Shown here in pieces: positions 4,554 to 59,103 of a DNA stretch of 64,000 nt. Made by a program: the position numbers and the translations under genes. Origin of the DNA: Tepidibacter hydrothermalis (GTDB lineage Bacteria > Bacillota > Clostridia > Peptostreptococcales > Peptostreptococcaceae); NCBI RefSeq assembly GCF_029542625.1, contig NZ_CP120733.1, positions 1,426,001 to 1,490,000 on the forward strand, given 5' to 3'. Under the pieces are notes generated by a model. That model was not told the DNA's origin, searched no databases, and saw only the letters and a list, made by a program, of their open reading frames with translations. Position 1 is the stretch's first letter; each line of letters starts with the position of its first letter.

Positions 4554-5339
4554 ATGAATGATGTTTTAAACCAAATGTTAAATTATGTAAATGTGTACAT
4601 GCTAATATTAGCAAGGTGTATAGGTTTATTTATAGCATCACCTGTATTCGGAAGGAAAAACCTTCCGAATATTTTTAAATTAGGATTTTCAATAATATTA
4701 GCTTATATAGTATTACCGTTTATAGATATTTCTAATTTAGAATACATGTCATTTTTACAGATATTATTTTTAGCAATAAAAGAATTGATAATAGGTTTAG
4801 TTATAGGATTTGTAGCTTTTATAGTGTTCTCTACTTTTTTCTTAGCTGGATCCTTCATAGACAGAGATTTAGGATTTAGTATGGCAAACGTGGTAGATCC
4901 TCAATATGGATTTCAAGTACCTATTACTGGAAATTTCATTTATATAATAGCTACATTGATATTTTTAATAATTAATGGGCATCATTATTTAATAAAAGCG
5001 TTAGTTAATAGTTTTTATATAATACCTATTAATAGTAATATCAATTTAGATGCTAGTATTTTGAAGTTTATGATTGATATATTTGATTATATATTTATTA
5101 TGGCAATTAAAATATCAATACCTATAACTATAATAATACTATCTACAAACTTAATATTGGGTATATTAGCTAGAACTATGCCGCAAATGAATGTTTTTGT
5201 TGTTGGAATGCCCATCAAGGTAATACTAGGGTTAGTTATAGTCTCTATTGTATTTCCGTATTATGAACCTATAATGGAAACTATGTTTAAGGACATGTAT
5301 AAATTTATATTTAATATTACAAAAATAATTCAAGGATGA
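4554..5339 (+). CDS. fliR: Flagellar type III export gate protein FliR
   Basis: 261 residues, hydrophobic throughout, with the FliR motifs ARCIGLFIASPVFGRKNLP near the N-terminus and LARTMPQMNVFVVGMPIK near residue 205-222. FliR is the single closing subunit of the export gate. A terminator-shaped hairpin lies inside its codons 31-41 (see separate entry). The gene ends 5 nt before flhB. Confidence 0.95.
   Translation: MNDVLNQMLNYVNVYMLILARCIGLFIASPVFGRKNLPNIFKLGFSIILAYIVLPFIDISNLEYMSFLQILFLAIKELIIGLVIGFVAFIVFSTFFLAGSFIDRDLGFSMANVVDPQYGFQVPITGNFIYIIATLIFLIINGHHYLIKALVNSFYIIPINSNINLDASILKFMIDIFDYIFIMAIKISIPITIIILSTNLILGILARTMPQMNVFVVGMPIKVILGLVIVSIVFPYYEPIMETMFKDMYKFIFNITKIIQG
4645..4676 (+). 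terminator. Terminator-shaped hairpin inside fliR coding sequence
   Basis: An 11-bp perfect stem (TATTCGGAAGG, loop AAAAA, CCTTCCGAATA) is followed at once by TTTTT. It has the form of an intrinsic terminator but lies wholly within fliR codons. It encodes the conserved FGRKNLPNIF segment, so it may be partly a coding coincidence. Function is inferred from shape only. Confidence 0.5.
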
Positions 5340-21575: not shown

Positions 21576-21773
21576 TTGAATTATTTTGAATTATTTGGGA
21601 TTGAACTTTCTAAGGCAAAACAGGTACTTGAAAATAATGATATAAAGTATATAATAAAAGAGACGATAGGGCGTAAAGATAAATCTTTGTTAGTATGCCC
21701 TAGAGTTATAAATATCAAAAAAAGAAATGATTATATAGAACTTGTTATCACATATTTTTCTGATTCCTTATAA
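21576..21773 (+). CDS. Conserved-position 65-residue protein of unknown function
   Basis: 65 residues from TTG 21576, with GGAGGT at 21565-21570 giving good support. The sequence (GIELSKAKQVLENNDIKYIIKET, then RVINIKKRNDYIELVITYF) is reminiscent of a single PASTA-type beta-alpha-beta module, but this is a visual impression. No signal peptide or membrane helix is seen. It lies between frr and uppS on the same strand, so it is probably translated with them. Confidence 0.65.
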   Translation: MNYFELFGIELSKAKQVLENNDIKYIIKETIGRKDKSLLVCPRVINIKKRNDYIELVITYFSDSL

Positions 21774-21808
21774 TAAGGAGTTAGAAAAATATTTGATTGG
21801 AGGAAAAT

Positions 21809-32988: not shown

Positions 32989-33280
32989 AATTCTTTCGCT
33001 ATTAGGTATTATTTTAAGAAGTGGTAACTTGGTTTCTGGAGATGATACTACATTATCTGATCTTAAAAAAGGAAAAATAAAATTAATTATAATAGCAAAT
33101 GATGCATCGGAAAATACAAAAAAACTTTTTAGAGATAAATCTGAATATAGAGATGTACCTTATATAATAGATTTTACGAAAGAAGAATTAGGAAAAAGTA
33201 TAGGAAAAAGTAGTAGAGCAGTAATAGGTATAAAAAGTGAACAATTTGCAAAAAAAATAAAAGAAATTAGTAGGGGGTGA
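32978..33280 (+). CDS. L7Ae-family ribosomal protein (YlxQ)
   Basis: 100 residues of the L7Ae/L30e/S12e/Gadd45 fold, recognised from [15 protein letters not shown] and [15 protein letters not shown]. Likely a kink-turn RNA-binding protein of the YlxQ group. It begins inside the end of rnpM and its own end touches the infB ribosome binding site, so the three genes are translationally linked. Confidence 0.88.
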
Positions 33281-33285
33281 AGCTT

Positions 33286-35214
33286 TTGTCAGAGACAAGA
33301 GTTTATCAATTAGCACAAGAATTAGGAATGTCAAATGAAGAAATTATAGAAAAAATGGATTCGTTAGAAATACTTGTAGAAAATAATATGAGTGTTTTAA
33401 GTGAGGAAGAAATAAATCAAATAAAAGAACTTTCAAATGAAGAAGAAGGAAATGGTGACAATAATCTAACTGAAATCAAAATAGCTGATAAAATAACAGT
33501 TCAAAACTTATCACAATTAATAGATAAAAGTGCTACGCAAGTTATAACTAAGCTTATAAAATTAGGAGTAATGGCAAGCATGAATCAAGAAATAGATTTT
33601 GATTTAGCTGCATGTGTGGCTATGGATTACGGATTTAAAGGTATAAGATATGAAGAAGATGAAATAGATGATGAAATAGAAATAGAGGAAGATAGACCGG
33701 AAGATTTAAAACCAAGACCAGCTATTGTAACTGTTATGGGACATGTTGACCACGGTAAAACATCATTACTTGATGCTATTAGAAATAGTAAGGTAACAGA
33801 TAAAGAGGCTGGTGGAATAACTCAACATATAGGTGCGTATGAAGTAGAAGTTGACAAAAAGAAAATAGTATTTTTAGATACTCCTGGACATGAAGCGTTT
33901 ACATCTATGAGAGCAAGAGGAGCTCAAGTAACAGATATAGCTATACTTGTAGTTGCAGCAGACGATGGTATAATGCCTCAAACGGTAGAAGCCATAAACC
34001 ATGCAAAAGCAGCACAAGTACCTATAATAATAGCTATAAACAAAATAGATAAAGTTGGAGCAAATCCAGATAGAGTAAAACAAGAATTAACAGAGCATGG
34101 ACTTTTAGTTGAAGATTGGGGAGGAGATATAATATCTGTTCCGGTTTCAGCTCTTAAAAATGAAAATATAGATACATTACTAGAAATGATTTTATTAGTT
34201 GCTGAAATGGAAGAATTAAAAGCTAATCCAAATAGAAAAGCAGTAGGAACTGTTGTAGAGGCACAACTTGATAAAGGAAGAGGTCCAGTAGCTACTGTAC
34301 TTGTTCAAAATGGAACATTAAAAGTTGGGGATGCACTTGTTGTTGGTTGTGCCCACGGTAAAATCAGAGCTATGGTAAATGACTTAGGTAAAAGAGTAAA
34401 GCAAGCAGCACCGTCTATACCAGTTGAAATACTTGGACTTTCTGAGGTTCCTCAAGCAGGAGATCAGTTTGTAGTAGTTAAAAATGATAAGATGGCTAGA
34501 AGTATAGCTGATAAAAGAAAAGATAAAATTAGAGCAAGACAAATGAAATCTAGTCAAAAGGTATCATTAGATGATTTATTTAAACAAATGGAACAAGGTG
34601 ATGTAAAAGAGCTTAATATAATAATAAAGGCAGATGTTCAAGGTTCAGTTCAAGCTGTAAAACAGTCTTTAGAAAAATTAAGTAACGAAGAAGTAACTGT
34701 AAGAGCTATTCATGGAGCTGTTGGAGCTATAACTGAGTCTGATGTAATGCTTGCTAGTGCTTCTAATGCTATAATAATAGGATTTAATGTAAGACCAGTT
34801 GGAGCAGCATCAGATGTAGCTGAAAAAGAAAAAGTTGATATGAGAACATATAGAGTAATATATAAGGCTATAGAAGATATACAATCTGCAATGAAAGGTA
34901 TGCTTGATCCTGAATTTGTAGAACAAGACTTAGGAAAAGCAGAGATTAGAGCTACATTTAAAGTATCTGGAGTTGGAACTATAGCTGGTGCATATGTAAC
35001 TCAAGGAAAGTTAGCAAGAAATGCTCAAGTAAGACTAGTAAGAGATGGAATAGTTATACATGAAGGTGAGCTTAGCTCTTTAAAGAGATTTAAAGATGAT
35101 GCTAAAGAAGTAGCTAAAGGCTATGAATGTGGATTTGCATTAAATAACTTTAATGATCTAAAAGAAGGCGATGTAATAGAAGCTTTTATAATGAAAGAAA
35201 AAGAAAATAGATAG
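33286..35214 (+). CDS. infB: Translation initiation factor IF-2
   Basis: About 642 residues: a short N-terminal region, a GTPase domain with G1 GHVDHGKT (near 148-155), DTPGHEAF and NKIDKVGA, and domains II-IV that bind fMet-tRNA. TTG 33286 is preferred because GGGGGTGA lies 5 nt upstream; the GTG at 33277 is part of that site. The protein is compact, without the long N-terminal repeats found in many IF-2s. Confidence 0.97.
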
Positions 35215-35230
35215 AAGGGTTGTAGATACT

Positions 35231-35596
35231 ATGGCATCATATTCTAGAACAAGAAGAATAGGAGAAGAAATAAAAAAGGTTGTAAGTAGATTGCTTTTAG
35301 AAGGTCTAAAAGATCCTAGAATATCTTCTCTAGTAAGTGTTACGGATGTTAATGTTACTTCTGACTTAAAGTATGCTTATATATACATCAGTGTACTTAC
35401 AGGAGATAAAGATGGAACCCTAAAAGGATTAAAAAGTGCCAGTGGATTTGTTAGAAAAGAAATAGGAAAACAAGTTAAATTAAGATATACTCCTGAAATA
35501 ATATTTAGACTTGATGACTCTATTGAAAAAGGAGTTTACATGTCTAATTTAATTAAAAACGTCAATTCAAAAAAAGAAGATGATGTAAATGAATAA
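35231..35596 (+). CDS. rbfA: Ribosome-binding factor A
   Basis: 121 residues with the RbfA KH-like fold: SRTRRIGEEIKKVVSRLL at the N-terminus, LKDPRISSLVSVTDV, and LRYTPEIIFRLDDSIEKG. A cold-adaptation 30S maturation factor. It overlaps nrnA by 8 nt. Confidence 0.96.
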   Translation: MASYSRTRRIGEEIKKVVSRLLLEGLKDPRISSLVSVTDVNVTSDLKYAYIYISVLTGDKDGTLKGLKSASGFVRKEIGKQVKLRYTPEIIFRLDDSIEKGVYMSNLIKNVNSKKEDDVNE

Positions 35597-36539
35597 AATA
35601 ATAAATACTATAATGGGAAGTAATAATTTTATTATTACTTCCCATTATAGTCCAGATGGAGACAATTTAGGATCATCAATAGGACTATACTATGCGCTTA
35701 AAAGTATGAAGAAAGAAGCTTTGTTTGTATTAGATGATAATCTTCCTGCTAATTTAGATTTTTTATATAAAGATATTAAAATATATAAATCTGAAGAAAT
35801 AAATACTGAAGACTATGTACTTATATCACTTGATTGTGGGGATAAAGATAGACTTTGTTGTAGCGATACTATAAAAAGTGAAGCAAGTTTAACTATAAAT
35901 ATAGATCACCATACAAGCAATGACTTATATGCGGACTTAAACTATGTAGACGATAAAGCATCATCTACATGTGAAGTTGTATATGAAATGCTTATGAAAA
36001 TAGATAAAAATATTATAGATAAAAAAATAGCTAATTGTCTTTACACTGGTCTTATAACTGATACAGGTAATTTTATGTATTCAAATACTAATCCTAGTAG
36101 TTTTGAAATGGCTTGTGAACTATTAAAAAAAGGAATAGACAAGCAAGATATAATACAAAGTATATATCAAAATAATCCTTTGAACTATGTCAAAATACTA
36201 GGAGAATCTTTAAATACATTAAACGTTGTAAAAGATAAAATAGCTACTATTGAATTGACTACTCAAATGTTTAAAAACAACAATATAACATTTAATGATG
36301 TAGATGGATTTGTAAACTATGCTAGAGATATAAATGGAGTAGAAGTTGGGATTTTATTTAAGCAAAAAAAATCTAATCAGATTAAAATAAGCTTAAGATC
36401 AAAATCATATGTCAATGTTAGTGAAATAGCAAAAGTATTTGGAGGAGGAGGCCATGTGAGGGCTTCTGGATGTACAATAAATGATTCTTTAGAGAATGCT
36501 AAAAAAACGCTTATAGAAGAAGTAATAAAGCATATTTAA
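35589..36539 (+). CDS. nrnA: DHH-family nanoRNase / pAp phosphatase NrnA
   Basis: 316 residues with the DHH motifs SHYSPDGDNLGSS (near 18), LDCGDKDR, the DHH motif itself in INIDHHTSND, and the DHHA1 signature FGGGGHVRASG near the C-terminus. It degrades short oligoribonucleotides and pAp. The start is within rbfA. Its codons about 7-21 form a perfect 20-bp hairpin (see separate entry). Confidence 0.93.
   Translation: MNKIINTIMGSNNFIITSHYSPDGDNLGSSIGLYYALKSMKKEALFVLDDNLPANLDFLYKDIKIYKSEEINTEDYVLISLDCGDKDRLCCSDTIKSEASLTINIDHHTSNDLYADLNYVDDKASSTCEVVYEMLMKIDKNIIDKKIANCLYTGLITDTGNFMYSNTNPSSFEMACELLKKGIDKQDIIQSIYQNNPLNYVKILGESLNTLNVVKDKIATIELTTQMFKNNNITFNDVDGFVNYARDINGVEVGILFKQKKSNQIKISLRSKSYVNVSEIAKVFGGGGHVRASGCTINDSLENAKKTLIEEVIKHI
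35608..35650 (+). other. Perfect 20-bp stem-loop at the 5' end of the nrnA coding sequence
   Basis: The arm at 35608-35627 (starting CTATAATGGGAAG) is exactly complementary to 35631-35650 (ending CTTCCCATTATAG), with the 3-nt loop TTT. It begins 19 nt after the ATG, in the region covered by an initiating ribosome, and also lies just after the rbfA stop. Twenty paired bases with no mismatch are far beyond what coding alone needs. Confidence 0.9.
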
Positions 36540-36553
36540 GAGAGTGATAATAT

Positions 36554-37456
36554 ATGAATGGAATACTTAATATACTAAAACCAACAGGTATGACATCTCA
36601 TGATGTTGTATCAAGAGTTAGAAGAATTGCAAATATGAAAAAAGTAGGACATACAGGTACATTAGATCCAAATGCAGCTGGAGTATTACCTATATGCCTT
36701 GGTAAGGCTACAAAAATAGCTGAACTCATATTGAATAAAGAAAAGACTTATATAGCAGAGTTAACACTTGGGATACAAACAGATACTTATGATTCTTTTG
36801 GTGAGATTATACAAAAGAAAGATCCAAGTCATATAAATGAAGAAGATATATATGCGGCATTTAAAAAATTTGAGGGAGAGATAACTCAAGTACCACCTAT
36901 ATATTCTGCTATAAAGGTTAATGGTAAGAGGTTGTACGAATTAGCGAGAAGTGGACAAACTGATGTTGAAATAAAATCAAGAAAAGTAATAGTAAAAGAT
37001 ATAAAAATAAAAAACATAGATAAAGAAAAAGTGTTATTTGAAGTTACAGTAACTAAGGGTACATACATTAGAAGTCTTTGTAAGGACATAGGAGACGAAC
37101 TTGGAGTTGGTGCTTATATGTCGTTTTTGCTTAGAACAAAGTCTGGTAATTTTGACATTCAAGATACATATACACTAGAAGAAATAGAACAAGCATCTGA
37201 AGAATCAAAATTACAAGATTGCATAGTGGGAATAGACTATCCTCTTACAAACTATGAAAGAATAGATGTAAAGCAAAGTGCATACAAGGCATTTTCTAAT
37301 GGAAATACTATATATCAAAAAGGTCTAATAATTAACCGAAAATATTATGATGAACAATTAGTAAAAGTATATATAGATGATAAATTTTGCGCAATTGGGA
37401 AAATAAAAATAGAAGATGATAATATATTGTTAAAAAGCCATAAATTATTTATTTAA
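36554..37456 (+). CDS. truB: tRNA pseudouridine(55) synthase TruB
   Basis: 300 residues with the N-terminal KPTGMTSHDVV and the catalytic Asp motif GTLDPNAAGVLP near 36-47, then PPIYSAIKVNGKRLYELAR and VTVTKGTYIRSLCKDIG. It makes pseudouridine 55 in the T loop of tRNAs. It lies between nrnA and ribF, the usual order. Confidence 0.96.
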   Translation: MNGILNILKPTGMTSHDVVSRVRRIANMKKVGHTGTLDPNAAGVLPICLGKATKIAELILNKEKTYIAELTLGIQTDTYDSFGEIIQKKDPSHINEEDIYAAFKKFEGEITQVPPIYSAIKVNGKRLYELARSGQTDVEIKSRKVIVKDIKIKNIDKEKVLFEVTVTKGTYIRSLCKDIGDELGVGAYMSFLLRTKSGNFDIQDTYTLEEIEQASEESKLQDCIVGIDYPLTNYERIDVKQSAYKAFSNGNTIYQKGLIINRKYYDEQLVKVYIDDKFCAIGKIKIEDDNILLKSHKLFI

Positions 37457-58952: not shown

Positions 58953-59027
58953 TAAGATGAATGTGAATGAAAGCCATGGCTAGATATTATTTATCAAGAC
59001 CTAATTTTAAAAAATATTAGTATTACT

Positions 59028-59067
59028 TTATTCAAACAAATTATATATATATAATTTGTTTGAATAA
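59028..59067. repeat. 40-nt perfect palindrome
   Basis: The 20-base arm at 59028-59047 (TTATTCAAACAAATTATATA) is exactly repeated in reverse complement at 59048-59067. It is AT-rich, with no spacer. It lies 3 nt before a conventional terminator. Confidence 0.92.
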
Positions 59068-59070
59068 TAT

Positions 59071-59103
59071 AAAAACCAGCAATTTAATAATTGCTGGTTT
59101 TGT
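59071..59103. terminator. Bidirectional intrinsic terminator between the chemoreceptor gene and the 59135 gene
   Basis: AAAACCAGCAATT, loop TAAT, AATTGCTGGTTTT: a 13-bp stem with T on one side and A on the other, suited to both convergent genes. Confidence 0.92.

Follow-up and report, generated by a model that had tools for sequence, protein, structure and literature searches.

The window, a 64-kb stretch of DNA from Tepidibacter hydrothermalis, carries the gene order infB-rbfA-nrnA-truB, and an inverted repeat occupies early codons of nrnA. The best NCBIfam match of the nrnA product is the NrnA model, at 149 bits, under that model's 350-bit cutoff. The features of the locus, all on the + strand, are as follows, with the basis of each assignment in parentheses.

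33277–35214, +: infB, upstream in the same gene row (reading frame, homology)
35231–35596, +: rbfA, whose stop codon at 35594–35596 overlaps the nrnA start (reading frame, homology)
35589–36539, +: nrnA, DHH/DHHA1 family protein of the oligoribonuclease/pAp phosphatase type (reading frame, homology)
35607–35651, +: predicted mRNA hairpin, 21-bp stem and 3-nt loop, codons 7–21 of nrnA (sequence, repeat search, folding)
35607–35627, +: left arm of the stem (repeat search)
35628–35630, +: loop TTT, a Phe codon; TAT, ATA or longer in some relatives (sequence, relatives)
35631–35651, +: right arm of the stem, encoding I-I-T-S-H-Y-S (sequence, repeat search)
35617–35641, +: family-wide conserved core, 35617–35627 paired with 35631–35641 (50 loci)
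35640–35663, +: codons of the conserved SHxxPDGD motif, encoded partly by the right arm (sequence, relatives)
36554–37456, +: truB, downstream in the same gene row (reading frame, homology)

The inverted repeat at the nrnA start

A sequence-only reading of the locus had claimed a perfect 20-bp stem with a 3-nt loop at about codons 7–21 of nrnA. An inverted-repeat search confirmed this claim and added one pair: 35607–35627 pairs with 35631–35651 over 21 positions, the arms being 100% complementary and 3 nt apart. The stem spans nt 19–63 of nrnA. Its first base is 18 nt past the A of the ATG (35589) and is separated from the rbfA stop codon by 10 nt. An 81-base query matched its own genome at the hairpin site only, on both strands. 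The stem is followed by CCAGATGGAGAC and lacks the trailing U run of an intrinsic transcription terminator. Rfam returned 11 matches at E ≤ 5 in 35400–35900, none of them near the gathering score (best 24 bits vs. 74).

The 63 ORFs within the 64 kb were scanned in 60-nt segments with a step of 6. Among the 9305 coding segments, the hairpin ranked first both by minimum free energy (−27.8 kcal/mol; mean of all segments −6.0, SD 3.3) and by synonymous-codon z score (−8.1; next best −5.4). For individual loci, we generated 300 synonymous resamples of 60 nt using codons from the gene itself (seed unfixed). None of the 300 resamples of Tepidibacter nrnA was as stable as the observed sequence.

Pairing and codon choice among relatives

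nrnA was found in 70 of the 71 family genomes; G028 had no match. Fifty of the 69 family nrnA starts examined carry the hairpin at the same codons (18 of 23 genera), and the remaining 19 (genera g8, g9, g11, g13 and g14) lack it with the protein kept. Hairpin loci were first picked by eye and then as whole genera, yielding 50 of the 51 genomes of the 18 genera. G069, in which a contig edge cuts the locus, was left out, and we dropped L011–L014 (duplicates of L005, L006, L018 and L017), L015 and L016 (too distant), and L125 and L126 (motif not found). Besides the family, nrnA was fetched by region from 40 of the 288 matching genomes at the order level.

A near-exact copy of the sequence (up to 3 mismatches) occurs in only six of the 71 family genomes, at nrnA. 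Three other g1 genomes have a stem that differs only in the outermost pairs. At 73% protein identity, T. thalassicus and T. formicigenes have G-C in place of one inner A-T pair through one change per side, one of them synonymous. Tepidibacter-type loci have 20–22 uninterrupted pairs, the folds of g15, g7, g18 and g20 have 12–13, and others contain a bulge. Loop sequence and size also vary among relatives (TTT, TAT, ATA, 4–7 nt), and all four g15 loci carry an additional codon within the loop region and keep an intact stem.

Of the 500 cells formed by the inner ten pairs of the 50 hairpin loci, 493 are paired; the eleventh pair is broken in 20 loci, where the folds usually bulge a base. Coding-strand wobbles in the inner ten pairs comprise 31 G.U and a single A.C, which argues for an element of the mRNA and not a DNA palindrome. 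The pair −18/−10 is G-C in 20 loci, A-T in 16 and T-A in 14; each of its two sides underwent six or more changes on the tree (49 rows), with the pair never lost. Three central pairs are invariant, and they sit at codon positions largely fixed by conserved protein residues.

We measured covariation in an alignment (A2) of 46 rows, 37 of them distinct, over 12 pairs; four g15 rows with the inserted codon were misplaced by MAFFT and kept out. Pairing occupied 94.8% of cells, vs. 85.4% in shuffled alignments and 34–65% in slid registers. Cells with a double change numbered 55 vs. 16.3 shuffled, and the covariation score was 0.423 vs. 0.229 shuffled. These three measures were reached by none of 500 shuffles and exceeded all slid registers. 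Two others were not above the shuffles: pairs with a double change (5 vs. 4.6; 326 of 500) and further pair types (12 vs. 13.6; 499 of 500). The double changes fall in five of the twelve pairs among the 37 distinct sequences.

A covariance model built from A2 found nrnA in all 50 hairpin genomes (E ≤ 4.2e-8), 46 of which were expected by construction, the four g15 loci having been outside the model. It scored the coding strand far above the opposite strand. Weak matches were obtained at nrnA in seven hairpin-less genomes (E 1e-6 to 0.044), and seven weak matches lay elsewhere (best E 4.6e-4); there was no strong second copy in the searched genomes under the stricter filters used. Within 120 nt on either side, no longer conserved structure or switch was detected in the 50 rows beyond one 2-pair helix.

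Synonymous codon choice follows the pairing. Under the resampling described above, the 50 hairpin loci had z scores of −8.6 to −3.0 (median −4.9), with 0–3 of 300 resamples reaching the observed energy and none doing so in 42 loci; the 19 hairpin-less loci had z scores of −2.1 to 2.0 (median −0.3). For the right-arm Thr, 31 hairpin loci use ACT, 19 use ACC and none uses ACA or ACG. Downstream in the same genes, ACA makes up 315 of 775 ACN codons and ACC only 19, and in hairpin-less relatives the same Thr codon is ACA in 9 of 19. The preceding Val/Ile codon is GTT, GTC, ATT or ATC in all 50 loci; the commonest GTN codon downstream is GTA (541 of 1019).

These comparisons show that codons 7–21 of nrnA encode a coding-strand mRNA stem-loop, which selection appears to have kept in most of the family, across a long span of evolution, by way of compensatory and synonymous changes. 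The check proposed by the sequence-only reading, whether relatives lose the pairing through synonymous changes, came out in favor of the hairpin, with 50 of 69 starts paired. Its broader suggestion of a functional mRNA hairpin is supported by pairing with compensatory and codon-choice evidence in the 50 loci, but the protein is kept without a hairpin in the other 19; its interpretation as a whole is borne out in part.

History of the hairpin and related folds

A quick tree of 84 NrnA proteins was computed with the hairpin part removed and the hairpin state set by genus; L087 was left out of the trees. It gave four hairpin-state changes within the family, and five with other families scored as hairpin-less. 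Since the early branches (g2, g12 and g1+g22) carry the hairpin, an ancestral hairpin with about four losses (g13, g9, g8 and g11+g14) would be the simplest reading. It is a tentative one because many forks are unresolved, the other families do not fall on one side, and five outside rows, four of them from f9, lie inside the family.

A shorter hairpin occurs at the same place in nrnA in all five f5 genomes (L128–L132) and in 5 of the 14 f11 genomes with nrnA (L134, L136, L142, L144 and L146; genera g65, g54 and g70). It has a G-rich left arm and a right arm of the CTTCCCC/CTCCC type, whose end falls on the same His codon or next to it. Relative to the Tepidibacter family, the register is one base off in f5 (L093) and one base off the opposite way in g65 (L095). 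Of 2000 synonymous resamples, 2–73 were as stable as these hairpins, figures that are suggestive given that the 21 re-tested loci from other families were picked after the first resampling; the f5/f11 follow-up covered 19 loci, most of them the same genes. In L104, a different fold scored equally well (10 of 2000). If the f5/f11 hairpin is real, its left arm had a separate origin, and this would speak for recurrent selection. It is possible, if rather doubtful, that nrnA contains an ancient regulatory RNA lying wholly inside the gene, which has shaped codons and some amino acids close to the catalytic motif and has originated there two or more times, in one register in the Tepidibacter family and in others in f5 and part of f11.

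Possible roles at the rbfA/nrnA junction

In 49 of the 50 hairpin loci, the upstream reading frame stops 49–72 nt before the conserved His codon, a tight junction of the kind that a translational barrier or coupling element would call for. This frame was identified as rbfA by homology in nine of the 50 hairpin genomes, including one RbfA-NrnA fusion and one via L160. The fiftieth locus, L031 (G005), has rbfA and nrnA in one open 443-aa frame without a stop and with the stem kept, and this frame appears to be an RbfA-NrnA fusion or read-through frame. A strong SD-like AGAGGAG precedes the nrnA ATG in L031. In L160 (G007:C1:1418400-1421900; genus g4, same family), an insert of ~1.9 kb at about 909–2783 interrupts nrnA after about codon 214–220. 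The insert carries a 372-aa frame resembling a TnpB/IS605 OrfB-type protein, as judged by reading without a family search, and may be an IStron-like element; it contains no Rfam intron match at gathering score.

The junction has opened in g14, where the rbfA stop lies 151–1097 nt before the His codon in eight genomes and L153 has no rbfA within about 1.8 kb. The hairpin is absent from all nine g14 loci (L151–L159). Ten loci in g8, g9, g11 and g13 have a tight junction without a hairpin, and therefore the junction does not require one.

The sequence-only reading had placed the hairpin in the initiation region, which holds only loosely. Counted from the A of the ATG (taking the likely ATG as the nrnA start), the conserved core begins after 28 nt in Tepidibacter-type loci and after about 37–40 nt in most other genera, and predictions show no consistent effect of the hairpin on opening of the start region. 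Positions 28–40 nt past the first base of the ATG are outside the footprint of an initiating ribosome. The mean predicted cost of opening the start region was 8.4 kcal/mol, vs. 7.9 kcal/mol for resamples, and was under the null mean in 17 of 50 loci (60 resamples for each locus, with a rule assigning the start codons). A hairpin that insulates the ribosome-binding region and keeps it open is not supported, as the opening cost is not lowered; nor does a hairpin that sequesters the start site fit, as the Tepidibacter stem begins 18 nt past the first base of the ATG and the cost is not clearly raised. By-eye inspection of the relatives revealed no shared slippery heptamer upstream of the stem as in a frameshift signal.

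Tentatively, and with slightly more doubt than confidence, we propose that the stem acts mechanically on ribosomes at the rbfA/nrnA junction. It lies about 11–30 nt past the rbfA stop and 18–40 nt past the nrnA start, with the genes overlapping or nearly touching, and so could fold in front of a ribosome that is finishing rbfA or beginning nrnA. By holding such a ribosome back at the junction, the stem would govern the frequency and speed of nrnA translation relative to that of rbfA, whether as a brake or as an aid to re-initiation. We favor such a barrier because the site is past the start, the junction is tight and the opening cost is not lowered. Also in its favor are the compensatory pairing, the strand-specific G.U wobbles, the codon choice that follows the pairing, the near-absence of other consensus structure within 120 nt on either side and the loss of the hairpin along with the open junction in g14. 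Against it stand the ten tight loci without a hairpin, the stem kept in the fused frame of L031 and the varying distance between start codon and stem among loci; the opening cost, which the hairpin does not lower, weighs on this side as well, and the loss in g14 is a single event on the NrnA tree.

Alternatively, the stem may be where RNase III (or a different double-strand endonuclease) processes the polycistronic mRNA, a cut at the nrnA start that would lower NrnA. As in elements of this type, the stem-loop lies within the first ~100 nt of the coding sequence (nt 19–63, relatives comparable), and there is a precedent in E. coli betT, whose hairpin at nt 21–95 of the coding region is cut (excerpts of PMC4067347). 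The 20–22 uninterrupted pairs of Tepidibacter-type stems make this a real rival in Tepidibacter, but that paper gives a minimum stem of about 22 bp, and several genera (g15, g7, g18 and g20) have 12–13 pairs, with bulges elsewhere. The RNase III target suggested by the sequence-only reading is therefore weak as a conserved role, many relatives having only 10–13 pairs, and as a general account we regard it as unlikely.

It is distinctly unlikely that the stem shields the upstream infB-rbfA message from 3′-to-5′ exonucleases, a role in which a protecting hairpin must sit inside the next gene because the genes overlap. In its favor, nearly every hairpin locus has the stem shortly after the rbfA stop, and the stem is absent from g14, where a long distance separates rbfA and nrnA. 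However, it is missing from the ten tightly spaced loci, it persists in the fused RbfA-NrnA frame, and the stems are A+T-rich.

We also find it rather improbable that the stem is a site for an RNA-binding protein, be it NrnA or a neighbor like NusA, a YlxQ/YlxR-type protein or RbfA, in an autogenous circuit. The gene row encodes RNA-binding proteins, the covariance model finds a single copy per genome at E ≤ 4.2e-8, and the three central pairs never vary. Those pairs, however, are at codon positions largely fixed by conserved residues, and the loop varies in sequence and size. Conservation of the stem but not the loop, with about 10 to 22 pairs tolerated, fits a barrier better than a sequence-specific protein site. 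Feedback by NrnA, which the sequence-only reading called conceivable, is a guess that finds no support in these comparisons.

That the hairpin is a functionless by-product of coding or of a recent template switch is very improbable. Its right arm does encode part of a conserved motif (ITSH/VTSH) and two of the five covariation measures stay within the shuffles, but the other three exceed every shuffle and slid register, synonymous resamples scarcely reach the observed energies, and the pair −18/−10 changed repeatedly on both sides without ever being unpaired. We rejected a recent template-switch palindrome because the stem is kept in 18 genera with differing sequences. A DNA-level palindrome, either a protein operator or a cruciform, is scarcely credible even though the inverted repeat is perfect in Tepidibacter, given the G.U/A.C asymmetry, the coding-strand preference of the covariance model and the absence of a second strong copy in the searched genomes; an operator was rejected on the first and last of these grounds.

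Structures inside bacterial coding sequences are already known, and the nrnA hairpin is unusual for the depth of its covariation. Alphavirus DLP and flavivirus cHP are downstream hairpins that hold the ribosome at the start codon. The barrier proposed for nrnA would likewise be a stem a few tens of nt past the start codon acting on the ribosome; theirs act on eukaryotic scanning ribosomes, whereas nrnA belongs to a bacterial overlapping gene pair with variable spacing. E. coli pnp is autoregulated through RNase III and PNPase, with a stem in the leader and not in the coding sequence. Both pnp and nrnA have a stem-loop beside the gene of an RNA-degrading enzyme, the nrnA stem being in the coding sequence. 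Excerpts of PMC4067347 describe pnp as RNase III-dependent and betT, bdm and proU as having coding-sequence hairpins controlled by RNase III. The betT type resembles the nrnA hairpin in being a stem-loop near the start of the coding sequence that is able to set the mRNA level; it differs in that most nrnA relatives are below 22 bp and in that betT rests on biochemistry, the nrnA case on family-wide covariation. Structures internal to ORFs of Mycobacterium ulcerans are likewise predicted hairpins located within coding sequence or close to it. Some of their pairs covary, but few do so significantly in excerpts of that study (PMC10062443), compared with double changes in five of twelve pairs in nrnA.

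We found no report of the nrnA hairpin among open-license PubMed Central papers, main texts only. One large RNA-element pipeline used intergenic regions of at least 30 nt (excerpts of PMC2864571). Searches are often limited to the DNA between genes, so a conserved element within a gene is easily missed. If nrnA does contain an ancient regulatory RNA, the dosage of NrnA relative to its operon would be under strong, recurrent control at the RNA level, possibly autogenous. The product of nrnA is an enzyme acting in the final step of RNA decay. The fold of the RNA dictates which codons are used and, it seems, amino acids beside a catalytic motif. The natural compensatory variants make direct tests simple.

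Other inverted repeats and stems were seen in the window. Long imperfect inverted repeats lie at 21747–21797 (25 nt at 88%) and 59023–59072 (26 nt at 92%). The coding segment at 4614–4673 has a 12-bp stem (about ATTCGGAAGG / CCTTCCGAAT) with a codon z score of −4.1, and may be a terminator lying within a called frame or at its end.
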